From assembly GCA_018820855.1 (NCBI GenBank), contig JAHJNL010000010.1:62001-126000 (forward strand): DNA of 64,000 nt, given 5' to 3'. How positions within the stretch are numbered: position 1 is the stretch's first letter; each line of letters opens with the position of its first letter. Positions 47,330 through 55,534 of this stretch are shown piece by piece. The notes beneath the pieces were generated by a model. It had not been told where the DNA came from and ran no database searches. It was given only the letters and a program-made list of their open reading frames with translations. The translations under genes were made by a program, and so were the position numbers. The stretch is from Pseudomonadota bacterium. Lineage in GTDB: Bacteria > Desulfobacterota > Desulfobulbia > Desulfobulbales > Desulfocapsaceae.

Positions 47330-48334
47330 TCAGATCCCGCTTATAAAAAAGGCAACAGATTCATCAACCGACAGTTTTTTTCCTTGTATGGTGATTTTCT
47401 CGGGTTGAGAAAACCAGCTGGTACCAATATCTTTTTTCGTTATCTCCGGGTTGTTATCCAGCAGGTGTTTTTTTATGGCCTGCGCCTTTTCTTTGGCCAG
47501 AGCTTTGTTGTTTTTCTGATAAACGATTACCTGCAGGCTTCCTTTATGCATGTTCTTGAAAATTGTGGCGATCAGTTTTAACGAAGGAGAGGAACCCCGT
47601 TCGAGGTTGGCAGTAAACGGTTGAAAGGCAATTTTTTCAATTGAGACAGTTCTGGCTCCCAGGCGATAATTGCGATAGGAGAAGTCCTGTAAACTGTTCA
47701 GGTGAGTAACGGCCTGGCGGGCCATGGCGCCAGAGGGGTAGCGAGCAAGGTACTCCAGCCAGGCCTGTTTTTCTTCCGGCGTCCTGTCCAGTTTGGAAAA
47801 GATGAGTGCGCGGTTATAGAGTGCTGATGGACTGTCCGGCCAGAGTTTAAGCGCCTTGTTGTAATTTTCCAAAGCCATTGTGTATTGCTTGGCCTGCAGG
47901 AGATTGTGGCCATAATAGAGCAGGGCCTGCAGATGCTTTTTCTCAAGGCTTAAGGCTTTTTCGTATTGCTGCCTCTCTTGTTTTCTCTGGTTCAGGCTGC
48001 CATAGGCAACACCTGTCCAGAAATGATAGTCGGCATCGTCGGGTTTGAGCGTACAGGCCTTTTGCAGGTATGGTAAGGCCTTTTCGTTTTTGTTGTTGGC
48101 CAGGAGCATGCGACCATAAAGGTAATTGTTCAGATGGCTGTCCGGGTCTTTCTGCAGGGCATGCTGGAATTTTTTTTCACCTTCCTGATATTTTTTGTGG
48201 CTGAGATAATAGTCTCCCTGCACGGTTGATTTGACGACCCCGCCAAAGTCCTTAAGGCTGTTTTGTAATGTCGTTACGCAGCCGGAAAGAAAAAAGGGGG
48301 CTATGAGGAAGAAAAGTATAAGGGGCCTGTTCAT
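47330..48334 (-). CDS. TPR lipoprotein, paralogue of the 45.4-46.6 kb protein
   Basis: 334 aa. The signal sequence ends in a lipobox (FFLSGC, Cys near 19). Four or five TPR units follow (YLSHKKYQEGEKKFQHALQK; NNYLYGRMLLANNKNEKAL; FWTGVAYGSLNQRKQERQQ; ALYNRALIFSKLDRTPEEK). The end (HLNSLQDFSYRNYRLGART, then AIKKHLLDNNPEITKKDIGTSWF) aligns with HLNNLGDFSYRSYQLGNRR and SRIRLSWFGEAE in the putative anti-sigma protein, so the two share a C-terminal domain. It lies 221 bp before the sigma factor gene on the same strand and may be in the same regulon. Confidence 0.8.
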   Translation of the reverse strand: MNRPLILFFLIAPFFLSGCVTTLQNSLKDFGGVVKSTVQGDYYLSHKKYQEGEKKFQHALQKDPDSHLNNYLYGRMLLANNKNEKALPYLQKACTLKPDDADYHFWTGVAYGSLNQRKQERQQYEKALSLEKKHLQALLYYGHNLLQAKQYTMALENYNKALKLWPDSPSALYNRALIFSKLDRTPEEKQAWLEYLARYPSGAMARQAVTHLNSLQDFSYRNYRLGARTVSIEKIAFQPFTANLERGSSPSLKLIATIFKNMHKGSLQVIVYQKNNKALAKEKAQAIKKHLLDNNPEITKKDIGTSWFSQPEKITIQGKKLSVDESVAFFISGI

Positions 48335-48899
48335 GTTGTTGACTGGAAAAAGTATGTAAAGTCCTTTCTGATTGAAGAGGAATACACTGTTGGAGTGTGG
48401 ATCGGCTTCGCAGTAGATTGCTTGTGAGCTATAGAGTCAGTTTTGTCCGCGAGAGCGGAATGCTTGTTCTTAATCTCTGTCTTGTCAGGTGCTTCTGCAG
48501 ACAAGCAAATTTCGTATAATAACGTGTATACTCGGAAAATTATTTTTTGTTAGTTATTTCTGATTGACTGGAATGTTTTCCTGAACAGGAGGCCGCTCTG
48601 TTTTATCATCCTGATAAGACAGAATATGTATGGTTTACGCTGGCTCTGTCTACCTTCTGGTTGCAAAGAAAATCTTGGACAGGAGAAAATTGAATTGTGA
48701 AAAATTAAAGTGCTCCTGAGCGGCATCACATCTGGAGAGAACAGTTTTTTTAAAACAAGAAATATTAAGTATCGAATGAGAAAATTTATGTCACAGGATT
48801 GCTGAATATTGCTTTGAAAAGTATCTTGCTACAGTTCTTTTTGGAAAATTTCTGTCCGTGGAGATTTTTTATTCCTGTTCTGTTTAACTGAGTTGAGCC
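48335..48899. other. Divergent intergenic region without a gene
   Basis: 565 bp between the TPR lipoprotein (minus) and the DUF2207 gene (plus). Nothing coding is supported. Near 48676-48695 the sequence CTTGGACAGGAGAAAATTGA matches the end of the PilZ gene at 33196 in 19 of 20 bases, but the frame is broken around it. Confidence 0.4.
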
Positions 48900-50246
48900 A
48901 TGACCACTGTTTTTCACTTATTCTTTTTGTGTGTCTTGTTGCTTCCCCATGCTGTTGTTGCCCGGACCATTTTCTGGCATGACATGGAAGTCAAGGCCAG
49001 TCTGGACGGAGATGGCTGTCTTCATATTCGGGAAGAGCAGACTATGGTGTTCTCTGGGAACTGGAACGGTGGTGAGCGGGATTTTCAGGTGCGGCCTGGC
49101 CAGCGTATGCAATTTGAGGGGATCAGTCGACTTGATGAGAATGGCCAGGAAATTCCACTTATCCAAGGAGATATGAAACTGGTGGATCACTGGGATTATA
49201 ATGGCAGCACCACAATCCGTTGGCGTTCCCGCTTGCCGTCAGATCCCGTTTTTAACAAGACAAAGATTACCTACGTTTTACGCTACAGTCTCAGTCACAT
49301 CTTGATTGCCAATAAGGAAGGCTATCTGCTCAACCATGATTTCTGTTTTCCGGAGCGGAGTGGGCTGGTGAAAAATTTTCGCCTGGACCTTGAGTTCGAT
49401 CCGGTCTGGCAGAGTCCCCCGGTAAGCATGATCCGCACCAATATCGCCCCGGGGCAGGGGGTTGTTCTGCGGCAACAGCTTTATTTCTCCGGGCAGGGCA
49501 CCCCAACCATTTTTAAAAAGCAGCCTTCAGCTCCTGCCACTATTCCATCGTTGCCAGCGTCTCCTGCTGCGGTCTGGCTTCGTTTAATCCTCCTCGTCGT
49601 CCTTATGGCAGGAAGCCTGTGGCGGATAAGGATGTTTTTTCGGTGGGAAAATGGTCTTGAGCGTTTTGTTCGAGTGGAGTCAGCAGATACGATAGATCGG
49701 CGATGGCTGGAGAAAGAACTCTTTGTCTATAAGCCCGAGGTGGTTGGGGCAACATGGGATAAGACATCGTCCACAGCTGAAGTGGCGGCAGTCCTTGCCC
49801 GCTTAGTGCAGGAGGGCAGGATGGAGAGTTGGCTGGAGCCGTATCGACTGCCTTTTTTTAATTATCGCATCCCAGGTATGGCACCTGTTCTCCACCTGAA
49901 ACTCTTGCAGGCCAGGGGATCTTTTTTGGGCTATGAACAGAAGCTGATCAAGGGACTCTTTGTTAACAACAGTATGACAACGGATACAAAAACTATAAGA
50001 AATTATTATCAAAAAAAGCAGAGGACCTTTGATCCGGTGTCGAAGATACAGGAGCCGTTGAAGAGGCAGATGGAAAAGCTGACCGATGAGGGGGAAATCC
50101 GTTTGAAGATGATATGGATGCCCACTGTGGTGCTTGCTGGATTTTTGGTACTTTTGTTATTTCCCAGCTCGGCTCTGTTGCTACTGGGTCTTTTTTTCTT
50201 GGCTGCGGCAAGCATTAATAATATCATTAATCTCCTCAGATCATGA
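48900..50246 (+). CDS. DUF2207 membrane protein, C-terminus cut by an in-frame TGA
   Basis: 448 aa to the TGA at 50244-50246. A signal peptide (HLFFLCVLLLPHAVVA) precedes the DUF2207 domain: MEVKASLDGDGCLHIREEQTMVF, WRSRLPSDPVFNKTKITYVL and a LNHDFCFPERSG segment. A TM helix (LRLILLVVLMAGSLWRI) follows near 230, then a cytosolic region with WDKTSSTAEVAAVLARL, and a second TM pair near 405-440. The reading frame stays open after the TGA for 107 codons and ends in the Gly/Ser-rich tail usual for this family. So either the gene is a recent nonsense mutant or the TGA is read through. Its role is unknown. Confidence 0.8.
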   Translation: MTTVFHLFFLCVLLLPHAVVARTIFWHDMEVKASLDGDGCLHIREEQTMVFSGNWNGGERDFQVRPGQRMQFEGISRLDENGQEIPLIQGDMKLVDHWDYNGSTTIRWRSRLPSDPVFNKTKITYVLRYSLSHILIANKEGYLLNHDFCFPERSGLVKNFRLDLEFDPVWQSPPVSMIRTNIAPGQGVVLRQQLYFSGQGTPTIFKKQPSAPATIPSLPASPAAVWLRLILLVVLMAGSLWRIRMFFRWENGLERFVRVESADTIDRRWLEKELFVYKPEVVGATWDKTSSTAEVAAVLARLVQEGRMESWLEPYRLPFFNYRIPGMAPVLHLKLLQARGSFLGYEQKLIKGLFVNNSMTTDTKTIRNYYQKKQRTFDPVSKIQEPLKRQMEKLTDEGEIRLKMIWMPTVVLAGFLVLLLFPSSALLLLGLFFLAAASINNIINLLRS

Positions 50247-50570
50247 GAGAGTGTTGAGGGACTGGCTTTACATCGCAGGTTTGCTGCGGCGCGCAATTAT
50301 TTTAAGCAGGAACTGGCTTGTGCGGAACCGGAAATCAGCGATTCCTGGTTTCGTAAATATGGCCGCTTCGCTGGCAGTACCCTTGGCGTAACTGCTGGCA
50401 GTTCCGGACCAGGGTTTACTGGTGGCGGTGGGGCCTTTGGCGGTGGGGGGGCCAGCGGTTCATGGAGCACGGCAGTAGGCTCGCTTGCTGCGAGTGGCAG
50501 TGATTCTTCTTCCGGCAGTGGCTCCAGCGGCGGAGGCAGTTCCGGAGGTGGGGGAGGAGGAGGGTGGTGA
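50247..50570 (+). pseudogene. In-frame C-terminal part of the DUF2207 gene after a TGA codon
   Basis: Same frame as the upstream gene, open for 107 codons to TGA at 50568. It begins ESVEGLALHRRFAAARNYF, then DSWFRKYGRFAG, and ends in TGGGGAFGGGGASGSW and a run of Ser/Gly with a final Trp. DUF2207 proteins normally end in an E-G-L-x-x-(Y/F)-(I/L) helix and a GGGGxSGGGGGGGW-type tail, so the piece clearly belongs to the upstream gene. No credible start codon or ribosome-binding site precedes it. Confidence 0.72.
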
Positions 50571-50782
50571 AAATATTCAGGTATGAGGTGTGGATTGCTG
50601 AGTTTTGCTGTTTAAACTGGAAATTGATCATCTGCTGAACGGCCTCAGAATACTGAGAAGTCGTGTTTGGTCACTGCGTCTGGTTGATATGATACTGCTA
50701 TTCTATGCTTTTTGTGGTATTTTTGAATGCTACTATTTTAGTTCACTCAGGGTTTTTCTTCCAATTAGAAGTGGGTATTGCA

Positions 50783-51448
50783 ATGCACAAGGGACGACAG
50801 ACAGATCAGCTTGATGCGTTTGCCTTGTTTCCTGATCTGATGCAGACTCTTTTTGCTGCAGGCTCGGAGAAGAGGCGCGGCAGGACAGCAGAGGTACCTG
50901 CACAAGAGGTCGGAAAAAAACTGTCTGAACCGAAGGGAAATTGCGTGGTTCCGCCACAGCCGCCGGATTTGAGCTGGCTCAGAAAAGAAGATTGTCAGGA
51001 ACAGGAGAGGTTGGAGGATATTCCGACTGCCCTGGTCCTTATGGGCAAAGGGCAGACGACTGATGTCCTTTTTTCTGACTTGCAGGCCCTGGGCTACCGG
51101 GTGGAGACTGCCGATACCCCTGTTGATGCTTTCAATAAGTTGAAATTCACAAGTTTTGCCGCAATCTTAATGCATGCAGAGTTTGAGAGAGATTCACTGG
51201 CAGAATCGGCACTTCATAGCTATTTAACATGGCTTCCCACAGCAAAAAGAAGAACCATTTTTTATATCCTTGTGGGACCTGATTTTCACACCCTGTATGA
51301 CCTAGAAGCCCTTGCCTTGAGTGTAAACCTGGTTATAAATGATACTGATGTCAAACAGTTGAAAACAATTTTGAAGAAGAGTTTTCGTGATCATGAAGAG
51401 CTGTTCGGGCCTCTTGTTGAAGCTTTGGCTGAGTGCGGAAAAGAATAG
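50783..51448 (+). CDS. Receiver-like domain protein, unknown role
   Basis: 221 aa from the ATG at 50783; the track start at 50705 adds a hydrophobic leader and cannot be excluded. The first 70 residues are polar and low in structure. The C-terminal 150 residues resemble a response-regulator receiver (TALVLMGKGQTTDVLFSDLQALGYRVETADTPVDAFNKL, quoted in part) without the acidic pocket and with LMHAEFE where the acceptor Asp would be. The end (SYLTWLPTAKRRTIFYILVG, LEALALSVNLVINDTDVKQL) is like zinc-ribbon/receiver proteins I recall from Geobacter and Desulfovibrio. It is probably a degenerate receiver that acts by binding partners. Confidence 0.62.
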   Translation: MHKGRQTDQLDAFALFPDLMQTLFAAGSEKRRGRTAEVPAQEVGKKLSEPKGNCVVPPQPPDLSWLRKEDCQEQERLEDIPTALVLMGKGQTTDVLFSDLQALGYRVETADTPVDAFNKLKFTSFAAILMHAEFERDSLAESALHSYLTWLPTAKRRTIFYILVGPDFHTLYDLEALALSVNLVINDTDVKQLKTILKKSFRDHEELFGPLVEALAECGKE

Positions 51449-51489
51449 GTGCTTTTGAGAGAGCAACTGACGTCCCGACCAAAACCTGA

Positions 51490-52722
51490 TTAATGGAGGG
51501 GACTGAGATCGTTTTTGTTCTGTTGGAAGATGTGCATTTTATCGCTGCTCCACTTTTCAGGAGAATCGTAGCCGGCAATATTAATACCGATCTTGGAGAG
51601 ATCAATTTCCTGTATCTGAATTGCTGTCTTTTTCTTGTCATTGTAGAAGATACGTACGACCGGTTGCAGAATGTTTTCAGTGGAGTTGATAACTACTCCG
51701 CTTAATTCGTTTGCCAGCCTGACGTAGGTTCCGATGGGATATACACCTATACTCCGGATGAATTTATAGGTCAGCTCCTTGTCAAAGTAATGGTCGCTCC
51801 ATTCGTAGAGCTTCCTCAATCCCTGTACACGGTCCAGGCCGTTTTTGTAGCATCTTATCGAGGTGATGGCATCGTAGACATCGCAGATAGCCGCAATTCT
51901 TGATCCGAATTCAATTGTGTCACCTTTCAGGCCATGGGGATAGCCGGTTCCATCGTATCGCTCATGGTGGTGCAGGGCGATGTCGTGGGCTTCGGGGGGC
52001 AATTCTGTAGTCTCTGCCAGGACCTTTGCTGAGTATTCTGCATGTTTCTTCATAATTGTAAACTCCTTCTGGTCGAGTTTACCCGGTTTATTGAGGATAC
52101 TGTTCGGAATCCTGGTCTTGCCGATGTCATGAAAAAGGGATCCCATGGCAAGATTAATGGTCATGTCATAGGAAATGTCGCAGGAGCTGCAAAAGGCCAG
52201 GACCAGAGAACTGACACTGATCGAGTGCATAAGGGTATATTCGTCTTTTTTCCTTATGCGTGTTAACAGGATAAGGGCATCTTTGTTGCGCGTGACCGAT
52301 TCTTGCATCTTTTCTACGAGCCGAAATGCATTGTCCGGATCAATGCATTTTCCTTCCTGTACGGCTCTCATTGCTTCCCGCATGGTAACAACGGCTTCAT
52401 TTCTGATCGTCCTGGCCATCTGGACTTCATCTTTGAGAGGGATAGGTGGCGGTGTTGCCGTTCTTTTTCTTTGCGCCAGTTTGTGCAGGTTTCTATTGGT
52501 CTCCTGTTGTACCTCATAGGCGGTCTTTGCGGGTTCGACGTCAAGTCCCAGGTCGGTATCAATATAGACTTCTTTGATTCCCCAGGAACGTATGATTTTT
52601 ATTGCCCTCTCGTCTTTGATCAGGGCCTTGCTGATAAAGATATTTTCTCCGGCCCAGTCACAGTTGAAGTCGTGAACAAATATTCCCGGCCTGAGTTGCT
52701 CTGTCTTAATCTTCTTGATCAT
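51490..52722 (-). CDS. HD-GYP cyclic di-GMP phosphodiesterase with DUF3391
   Basis: 410 aa. The N-terminal DUF3391-like region (KIKTEQLRPGIFVHDFNCDW, GIKEVYIDTDLGLDV) is followed by the HD-GYP domain: SVSSLVLAFCSS, LFHDIGKTRIP near 197, MKKHAEYSAKVL and IALHHHERYDGTGYPHGLKG near 250. It also has AAICDVYDAITSIRCYK. All metal-binding His/Asp residues and the GYP triad are intact, so it should hydrolyse cyclic di-GMP. It balances the GGDEF enzyme at 41.4 kb. The stop lies 41 bp from the end of the receiver-like gene on the other strand. Confidence 0.93.
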   Translation of the reverse strand: MIKKIKTEQLRPGIFVHDFNCDWAGENIFISKALIKDERAIKIIRSWGIKEVYIDTDLGLDVEPAKTAYEVQQETNRNLHKLAQRKRTATPPPIPLKDEVQMARTIRNEAVVTMREAMRAVQEGKCIDPDNAFRLVEKMQESVTRNKDALILLTRIRKKDEYTLMHSISVSSLVLAFCSSCDISYDMTINLAMGSLFHDIGKTRIPNSILNKPGKLDQKEFTIMKKHAEYSAKVLAETTELPPEAHDIALHHHERYDGTGYPHGLKGDTIEFGSRIAAICDVYDAITSIRCYKNGLDRVQGLRKLYEWSDHYFDKELTYKFIRSIGVYPIGTYVRLANELSGVVINSTENILQPVVRIFYNDKKKTAIQIQEIDLSKIGINIAGYDSPEKWSSDKMHIFQQNKNDLSPLH

Positions 52723-52973
52723 TGGGGTGATGGTCGGTGTTTCATTTAAACCGTCTTTTCTGTACTAAGGACAATAGGGATAAAAGAATTCTCTTTAATA
52801 ATAGAGTGCTCATGAGAGAGAGTCAAAATAAAAGCAGAACTTCAATGGATATTAGGCAGAAAAGGCTCAGATGAGGTATGGGGCAAGTCCGCGTGTTTCG
52901 TTTCAGGTAATGAGTCGTCTGCTGAGAGCTGTTCAATGGAATGTCTAAAAAAAACAGTCGGACAAAAATAATA

Positions 52974-53306
52974 TCAAGGAAGAACTTCTTGATCTCTCGC
53001 TTCCTGTACCAATGGATACTTGATTGCATTCAACTGCATTTTTTCCCTGGCGCAGGTCAGAGGGTCAAGGTCGAATTTGTCGGCCAGCATGGTGAGGTAG
53101 ATCATTACATCACCCACCTCTTCTGCAATGTGAGCTCGCGTTGCGTCATCTACTTTCTGACTGTTGTCGCCCTCCATCCATTGAAAGATCTCGGTTAGTT
53201 CTGCGGTTTCGACGCTCAGGGCCATGACCAGATTCTTGGGGGAGTGGTAGCGTTGCCACCTTCTTGCAGCTGTAAATGCGCGAAGTGCTGTTTTCAGTTT
53301 TTCCAT
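52974..53306 (-). CDS. MazG-like nucleotide pyrophosphohydrolase
   Basis: 110 aa from the ATG at 53306 (MEKLKTALRAFTAARRW), the usual start of this family; the track start is 29 codons earlier. Metal-binding motifs are SVETAELTEIFQW (E-x-x-E) and AEEVGDVMIYLTMLADKF (E-x-x-D). These small all-alpha NTP pyrophosphohydrolases remove non-canonical or excess dNTPs. It is divergent from prc. The substrate is not predictable. Confidence 0.85.
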   Translation of the reverse strand: MEKLKTALRAFTAARRWQRYHSPKNLVMALSVETAELTEIFQWMEGDNSQKVDDATRAHIAEEVGDVMIYLTMLADKFDLDPLTCAREKMQLNAIKYPLVQEARDQEVLP

Positions 53307-53431
53307 GGCTGTCACCGTTTCTGTTGGTATTTCTTCTCGGATTCTGGTAATTTTCTTCGTTTTACGTATTATAAGGTACCATCGTAGCGTCAAACTGCAA
53401 CGCTCTTTCCCTTTTACCCACAGAGAAACAA

Positions 53432-55534
53432 ATGAAAAAAATAGTTAGTGCATGTCTGGCAGGCGTTTTTTCCCTCACTCTTTTACTGCCAACCATATCC
53501 ATAGCCGAATCTGCGGCACCGCAGGAGATTGACTCCGGCCGCAACAAGCTGATCGGTTATATGCTTGGCAAACAGTTGCCGGTCATGCATTTCAGCGACA
53601 AAGAGGTGGATGACGATCTGGCCTTTGCCGCCTTTGATCTCTATATCAAACAGCTGGACTTTCAGAAACGATTTCTCCTTCAGGAGGATGTGAACAAACT
53701 GTCGGTCATGGCCCCGGCTATTGATAATAATCTCTTGAAAGGGACTATTGCCTTACCGGATGAGGGGTATACTATTCTGTCCCGACGGATTGATGAGGTT
53801 GAGAAAATAACAGGCGAGCTTCTTGCTGCCGGCTTTGATTATAACCGGGACGAGAATTATGAAACTGATCCGGATAAGCTGAAGTATGCCGTTACGCTTC
53901 AGGATCTTCGGGAGCGCTGGCGGAAGATCCTGAAAGGACAGATTGTTTCCCGTTATCTTGATCTCGTGGAAGAGCAGAAAGAGGCCAAGGAGCAAAAGGA
54001 TGACAAGGAATTGTGGAAAGAGGCGGAGGATAAGGTAGCGAAACGCAATCAGAATTTCTTTCATCGTATGCACCAGGAGACACTGCAGGATCATTATGAC
54101 CGATATTTTAATTCCATAACCAGGGCCTTTGATCCGCATACGAATTATATGCCACCGGCCAATAAAGAAGATTTTGACATCCACATGCGGGGTAGTCTTG
54201 AAGGAATAGGAGCCCTGCTCCGGGAAGAAGACGGTTATATCAAGGTGGTCAACATCATTCCAGGTTCTGCCTCGGCCCGCCAGGGTATGCTGCAGGCAGA
54301 GGATATCATTCTTGAGGTGGCCCAGGGCGCTGAAGATCCTGTGGAAATTACTGACATGCGCCTGCGTGACGCTGTTCGTCTTATTCGCGGTCCCAAGGGG
54401 GGCGAAGTGCGCCTGACCGTGAAAAAAATAGACGGGACCAAGGTAATCATTCCGATTATTCGTGATGTGGTGCAGATCGAAGAGACCTTTGTCAAGTCCA
54501 GTCTGTTGGAGGGGCCTGGGGGGAAAAAAATCGGTTATGTCATGATCCCGAGCTTCTATCGAGATTTTGAGAAGACTCGTAACGGCTCTGATGCAAGAAA
54601 TTCTACCGATGATACCAGGAAGGTGGTGGAGGAACTGAAAAAAGCAGGGATGTCCGGTCTGATTCTTGATCTGCGCAATAACGGTGGGGGCTCTCTTATG
54701 GACGCCGTGGATACCGCAGGTCTGTTTTTTCCAGTCGGACCGGTGGTACAGGTCAAAAATAACTACGGTTCCATACGGGTACTCAGCGACGAGGATCCCT
54801 CCATCGTTTGGGATGGCCCGCTTCTGGTCCTGGTGAATCAGTTTTCTGCCTCAGCTTCCGAGATTGTGGCAGCTGCGCTCCAGGACTATGGTCGTGCAGT
54901 GATCGTGGGCGGGGCTCACACCCATGGCAAGGGCACTGTACAGACTCTGATAGACATGAATGAAAATATCCCCCTCCTGCATCTGAAAAAATATGAAGAT
55001 CTTGGGGCATTGAAGGTGACGATCCAGAAATTCTACCGGGTCAATGGCGGATCAACGCAGTACAAGGGCGTGGAACCTGATATTGTCCTTCCCTCCCTCT
55101 TTCAGCATCTCGAGTCTGGTGAGCAGTATCTTGATTATTCTCTGCCGTGGGATCAGGTAGAGCCTGTCTCGTTTGTCAGGTATGGTTCTACACCGATAGA
55201 TCTTGACCTGTTAAAGGCAAAAAGTAGTCAAAGGGTGGCAAAAGATGAGGGGTTACAGGTCATTGCCGACGAAGCTGAAAAGGCATTGCAGCGATCCAAG
55301 CAAACCACGATGTCCTTGAAACTTAGTGACATGACGGCCCAGTTGGAGGAGGCCAAGGTCGCACGTGATAAAATTGGGGCACATTATCGGAAGTTTCGTG
55401 AGGAGCAGGGCGCAGACAGGGGAGAAGAACCCAGTCCCGGCCTGGAGGAAGAGCAGGACAAAGATAAGTGGAAGGAAGATATTAAGGAAGATCCGTATAT
55501 TAATGAGTCTATTCATATCCTTGGAGATATGTGA
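53432..55534 (+). CDS. prc: Carboxy-terminal processing protease (Prc/Tsp)
   Basis: 700 aa periplasmic serine protease. A signal peptide (KKIVSACLAGVFSLTLLLPTISIAES) is followed by the N-terminal Tsp domain, a PDZ domain (about 255-335; LEGIGALLREEDGYIKVVNIIPG, quoted in part) and the S41 protease domain. The substrate loop is LDLRNNGGGSLMDAV. The catalytic Ser is in NQFSASASEIV near 472 and the Lys in HTHGKGTVQTL near 499. The C-terminal 150 residues are a charged DUF3340-like tail (DMTAQLEEAKVARDKIG). It degrades misfolded or tagged proteins and processes envelope proteins. It has its own promoter region, divergent from the MazG-like gene. Confidence 0.94.
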   Translation: MKKIVSACLAGVFSLTLLLPTISIAESAAPQEIDSGRNKLIGYMLGKQLPVMHFSDKEVDDDLAFAAFDLYIKQLDFQKRFLLQEDVNKLSVMAPAIDNNLLKGTIALPDEGYTILSRRIDEVEKITGELLAAGFDYNRDENYETDPDKLKYAVTLQDLRERWRKILKGQIVSRYLDLVEEQKEAKEQKDDKELWKEAEDKVAKRNQNFFHRMHQETLQDHYDRYFNSITRAFDPHTNYMPPANKEDFDIHMRGSLEGIGALLREEDGYIKVVNIIPGSASARQGMLQAEDIILEVAQGAEDPVEITDMRLRDAVRLIRGPKGGEVRLTVKKIDGTKVIIPIIRDVVQIEETFVKSSLLEGPGGKKIGYVMIPSFYRDFEKTRNGSDARNSTDDTRKVVEELKKAGMSGLILDLRNNGGGSLMDAVDTAGLFFPVGPVVQVKNNYGSIRVLSDEDPSIVWDGPLLVLVNQFSASASEIVAAALQDYGRAVIVGGAHTHGKGTVQTLIDMNENIPLLHLKKYEDLGALKVTIQKFYRVNGGSTQYKGVEPDIVLPSLFQHLESGEQYLDYSLPWDQVEPVSFVRYGSTPIDLDLLKAKSSQRVAKDEGLQVIADEAEKALQRSKQTTMSLKLSDMTAQLEEAKVARDKIGAHYRKFREEQGADRGEEPSPGLEEEQDKDKWKEDIKEDPYINESIHILGDM

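Follow-up and report, generated by a model that had tools for sequence, protein, structure and literature searches.

A DUF2207 gene with an in-frame TGA and two in-frame deletions in a Desulfocapsaceae bacterium: very probably a recent pseudogene

The window, i.e., the whole 64,000-nucleotide stretch of DNA analysed here, contains a gene for a DUF2207 membrane protein that is interrupted by a stop codon and lies in the order TPR, DUF2207, 247-aa ORF, HD-GYP, MazG-like and Prc (Table 1). The names TPR, HD-GYP, MazG and Prc come from reading the translations; among these neighbours only the 247-aa ORF was scanned against Pfam. By eye this ORF resembles a response-regulator receiver. It has no Pfam match and no counterpart at the matching locus in any relative examined. 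In the genome with the closest copy of the DUF2207 gene (G006), there is no 247-aa gene, and of the HD-GYP gene, which has decayed, only fragments lie downstream of the intact DUF2207 gene (L019:5933-6127). In another relative (G010, L070) prc occupies two frames split near residue 353-366, through either a pseudogene or an assembly frameshift. An Rfam scan of the window returned no match.

Table 1. Features of the DUF2207 locus and its surroundings (window positions)
Feature	Position	Strand	Basis
TPR gene	47330-48334	minus	
5' part of the broken gene: signal peptide, DUF2207 N-terminal domain, membrane helix, start of DUF2207_C	48900-50246	plus	ORF list; Pfam; 71% identity to G006 copy
Junction of 198-bp (66-codon) in-frame deletion	50134-50135	plus	Protein and DNA alignments; placed within ~10 bases
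Premature in-frame TGA	50244-50246	plus	Codon alignment; DNA alignment with G006
Former 3' coding part: C-terminal helix remnant and Gly/Ser-rich tail ending GGGGGGGW; original stop 50568-50570	50247-50570	plus	
Sole remaining copy of 13-bp direct repeat GATTCCTGGTTTC at junction of 48-bp (16-codon) in-frame deletion	50340-50352	plus	
247-aa ORF	50705-51448		
HD-GYP-type gene	51490-52722	minus	
MazG-like gene	52974-53393	minus	
Prc-type protease gene	53432-55534		

According to the ORF list, a reading frame starting from the ATG in position 48900 runs for 448 codons to the in-frame TGA, beyond which the same frame stays open for another 107 codons (50247-50567) and ends in a second TGA. The initial annotation had described this uninterrupted continuation correctly. 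Both sides of the first TGA match a single unbroken protein of ~640-650 aa in relatives, and the DUF2207_C match lengthens on read-through, so that the open frame after the stop reflects homology rather than chance. Translation is not expected to restart internally, as no in-frame ATG, GTG or TTG is found after the TGA. An ATG at 50243-50245 overlaps the stop in a different frame, which closes after four codons.

The assignment to DUF2207 is based on the N-terminal domain, for which PF09972 scores 29.1 bits (E 1.3e-6), above the cut-off of 24.4. The C-terminal profile PF20990 (DUF2207_C) reaches 22.0 bits (E 1.4e-4), or 26.8 bits when the TGA is read through and the end of the match moves from residue 438 to 479; both values lie below the cut-off of 33. 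Since the intact relative in G006 scores 42.4 bits and passes this cut-off, the shortfall of the window copy is probably due to the deletions described below. The gene thus shares with the DUF2207 family (PF09972 with PF20990) the N-terminal match and the order of the domains in one membrane protein, but differs in being broken by a TGA, in lacking two segments and in its C-terminal score. A studied member of the family, SMU.243 of Streptococcus mutans, is intact, in contrast to the window copy, and bacteria from which it is deleted tolerate acid and oxidative stress less well and form less biofilm (PMC10457818).

Alignment with relatives, which the initial annotation had proposed as the way to find the normal residue, gives Arg or Ala at the position of the stop. 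The codons of the six aligned relatives are AGA, AGG, GCA, GCA, CGG and CGG, the copy in G026 has Arg there too, and neither Cys, Sec nor a stop occurs in this column in any of them. The TGA cannot be taken as the natural end of the protein, as no aligned relative ends there. In the DNA alignment, TCA AGA GAG AGT of the G006 copy faces TCA TGA GAG AGT of the window. Judged from the alignments, one base change, probably in an Arg codon, would explain the stop. The single-base origin suggested at the outset (for example CGA to TGA) is sound in this respect, with AGA rather than CGA in the nearest relative, and a recent nonsense mutation, one of the options listed then, is the best fit.

In addition to the TGA, the gene has lost two segments in frame, 66 codons upstream and 16 codons downstream of the stop, which had initially been overlooked. 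Since more distant relatives also carry these segments, the gaps are losses in the window lineage and not gains elsewhere. The larger one takes out a hydrophobic, predicted membrane-helix region present in all relatives. A search at a lag of 198 gave no clear direct repeat for it, and by eye only a short similar stretch, GGATTTTT/GTATTTTT, is visible. The smaller one removes the WFPYLLAFGLG motif, which is present in every relative with at most small changes. The region beyond the TGA had been said to hold the usual C-terminal helix and Gly/Ser-rich tail of the family; it is indeed homologous and open, but it is not complete, 16 codons including this motif being gone. As to the origin of the 48-bp gap, G006 has both copies of a direct repeat, with the missing segment exactly between GATTCCTGGTTTC and GACTCCTGGTTTC, while the window keeps one. 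Outside the tail of the G006 gene, 48 was the only spacing among those of 30-300 bases with a match at 12 of 13 positions. There is thus good support for a deletion between direct repeats, and replication slippage was probably the mechanism. Neither deletion shifts the frame, an outcome with a chance of ~1 in 9 under neutrality alone and a point against inactivation of the gene.

Measured against intact homologues, the gene carries disabling lesions: a TGA in a column of Arg or Ala and the loss of 66 and 16 codons. Very probably, the DUF2207 gene at 48900-50570 was inactivated recently, i.e., it is a recent pseudogene or a gene being lost. A shortened protein might have been made before the TGA arose, or might still be made despite it.

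A search of 56 genomes found the gene in eight others, four from the same genus and four from the same family; only 5 of the 20 genomes of the genus have it. Five relatives carry full-length copies of ~640-650 residues. The contig scan matched only the G006 relative. No second intact copy was detected in the genome itself, where a weak DUF2207_C match on contig C49 coincides with a diguanylate-cyclase-like frame and is probably a false hit. Several of the other copies are damaged. In that of G026 (L007), the Trp conserved in VGATWDK has independently given way to an in-frame TGA, on a contig of only 4 kb where an error is possible; that of G023 (L008) has lost most of the N-terminal domain through a frame-shifting internal 5' deletion, and that of G020 is without this domain. 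Assembly errors may account for part of this damage. In G018, which belongs to the same genus and has a 90% identical Prc, the block from DUF2207 to HD-GYP is gone while the TPR and MazG/Prc genes are kept. Its interval L057:2570-3110 corresponds to window 48335-53000, and ~190 non-coding bases (window 48451-48636) are still recognisable in it. The picture suggested by these comparisons is one of repeated loss of an accessory DUF2207 locus.

Against this background, it is unlikely that the TGA, and perhaps the deletions too, are errors of sequencing, amplification or assembly that conceal an intact gene in the organism. One wrong base would be enough to create the TGA, and the genome is the only one available for its species and is split into 106 contigs. 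However, this explanation has to account for three separate lesions in one gene, on a contig of 209,526 bases, and for a 48-bp deletion that bears the biological signature of a direct repeat and leaves the frame intact; moreover, relatives, too, have degraded or lost the locus. With two in-frame deletions alongside the TGA, sequencing error alone becomes much less likely, and gene decay is indicated.

If the gene is being lost, the question arises of how long ago it was damaged. Between the window and G006, dN/dS is 0.18 before the TGA and ~0.11 after it, so that both halves would have been under selection for nearly all of the time since the two lineages split. Amino-acid changes specific to the window and to G006 number 36 versus 44 with G008 as the outgroup, 31 versus 28 with G013 and 36 versus 20 with G012. 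The window lineage shows no consistent excess across the three outgroups, nor is selection clearly relaxed in the N-terminal part; the lesions are probably too recent for this test. As the code after the TGA still bears the mark of purifying selection and the excess is lacking, the lesions are probably young. Since both halves were under selection until recently, the selection data do not separate a dead gene from a truncated one that is still useful. The latter possibility, in which the N-terminal 448 aa form a functional membrane protein and the TGA merely trims its tail, is nevertheless improbable. The one clean frame before the TGA, its low dN/dS and the lack of a consistent excess of changes are in its favour. 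However, the corresponding constraint on the untranslated part shows only that the lesion is young; furthermore, the 66-codon deletion falls within the truncated protein itself, and the C-terminal motif is kept in all relatives.

A reading in which the TGA is translated, either into selenocysteine or through programmed read-through, to give a 556-residue protein is scarcely credible. In its favour, the genome does encode tRNA-Sec (73 bits, above the cut-off) and SelB (368 bits), the code after the stop looks constrained, and stops kept with constrained dN/dS are reported for other bacteria (PMC7918605). However, those stops are conserved whereas this one is conserved in no relative, and the column holds Arg or Ala, never Cys, Sec or a stop. 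The RNA that follows the TGA is not more stably folded than shuffled sequences (z 0.58, -0.06 and 1.39, by folding energy only), and even the extended product would be missing WFPYLLAFGLG as well as 66 residues of the membrane region. Selenocysteine is thus rejected despite the machinery, and the early doubt about it, for want of a SECIS-like hairpin, is borne out: no bSECIS hairpin was found after the TGA by folding energy. Since both deletions also remove conserved parts, functional read-through is unlikely as well; it is very improbable that it occurs at a useful rate and yields a shortened functional DUF2207 protein in which the membrane region is altered and the Gly/Ser tail is retained.

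For the recently inactivated gene, the following course of events can be proposed. The intact ancestor would have encoded a ~640-aa protein composed of a signal peptide, the DUF2207 N-terminal domain, membrane helices, WFPYLLAFGLG and the Gly/Ser-rich tail. The window lineage would then have gained the nonsense codon, probably from Arg, and the two in-frame deletions, of which the smaller arose between 13-bp direct repeats, probably by replication slippage. The product, if any, would be a truncated protein of 448 aa without the C-terminal part, and the gene may be heading for the loss already seen in a near relative. Like ordinary bacterial pseudogenes, it combines a nonsense codon with deletions, of which one lies at a direct repeat, and relatives have lost it in a patchy manner; it differs only in how young its lesions are and in that the frame stays open past all of them.

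Beyond annotation, the significance of this case is slight: the appropriate label for the gene is pseudogene, and neither selenoprotein candidate nor two genes. It adds one more example to the recurrent decay of the accessory DUF2207 locus in this bacterial family, and this recurrence suggests that the DUF2207 protein is dispensable under some conditions.
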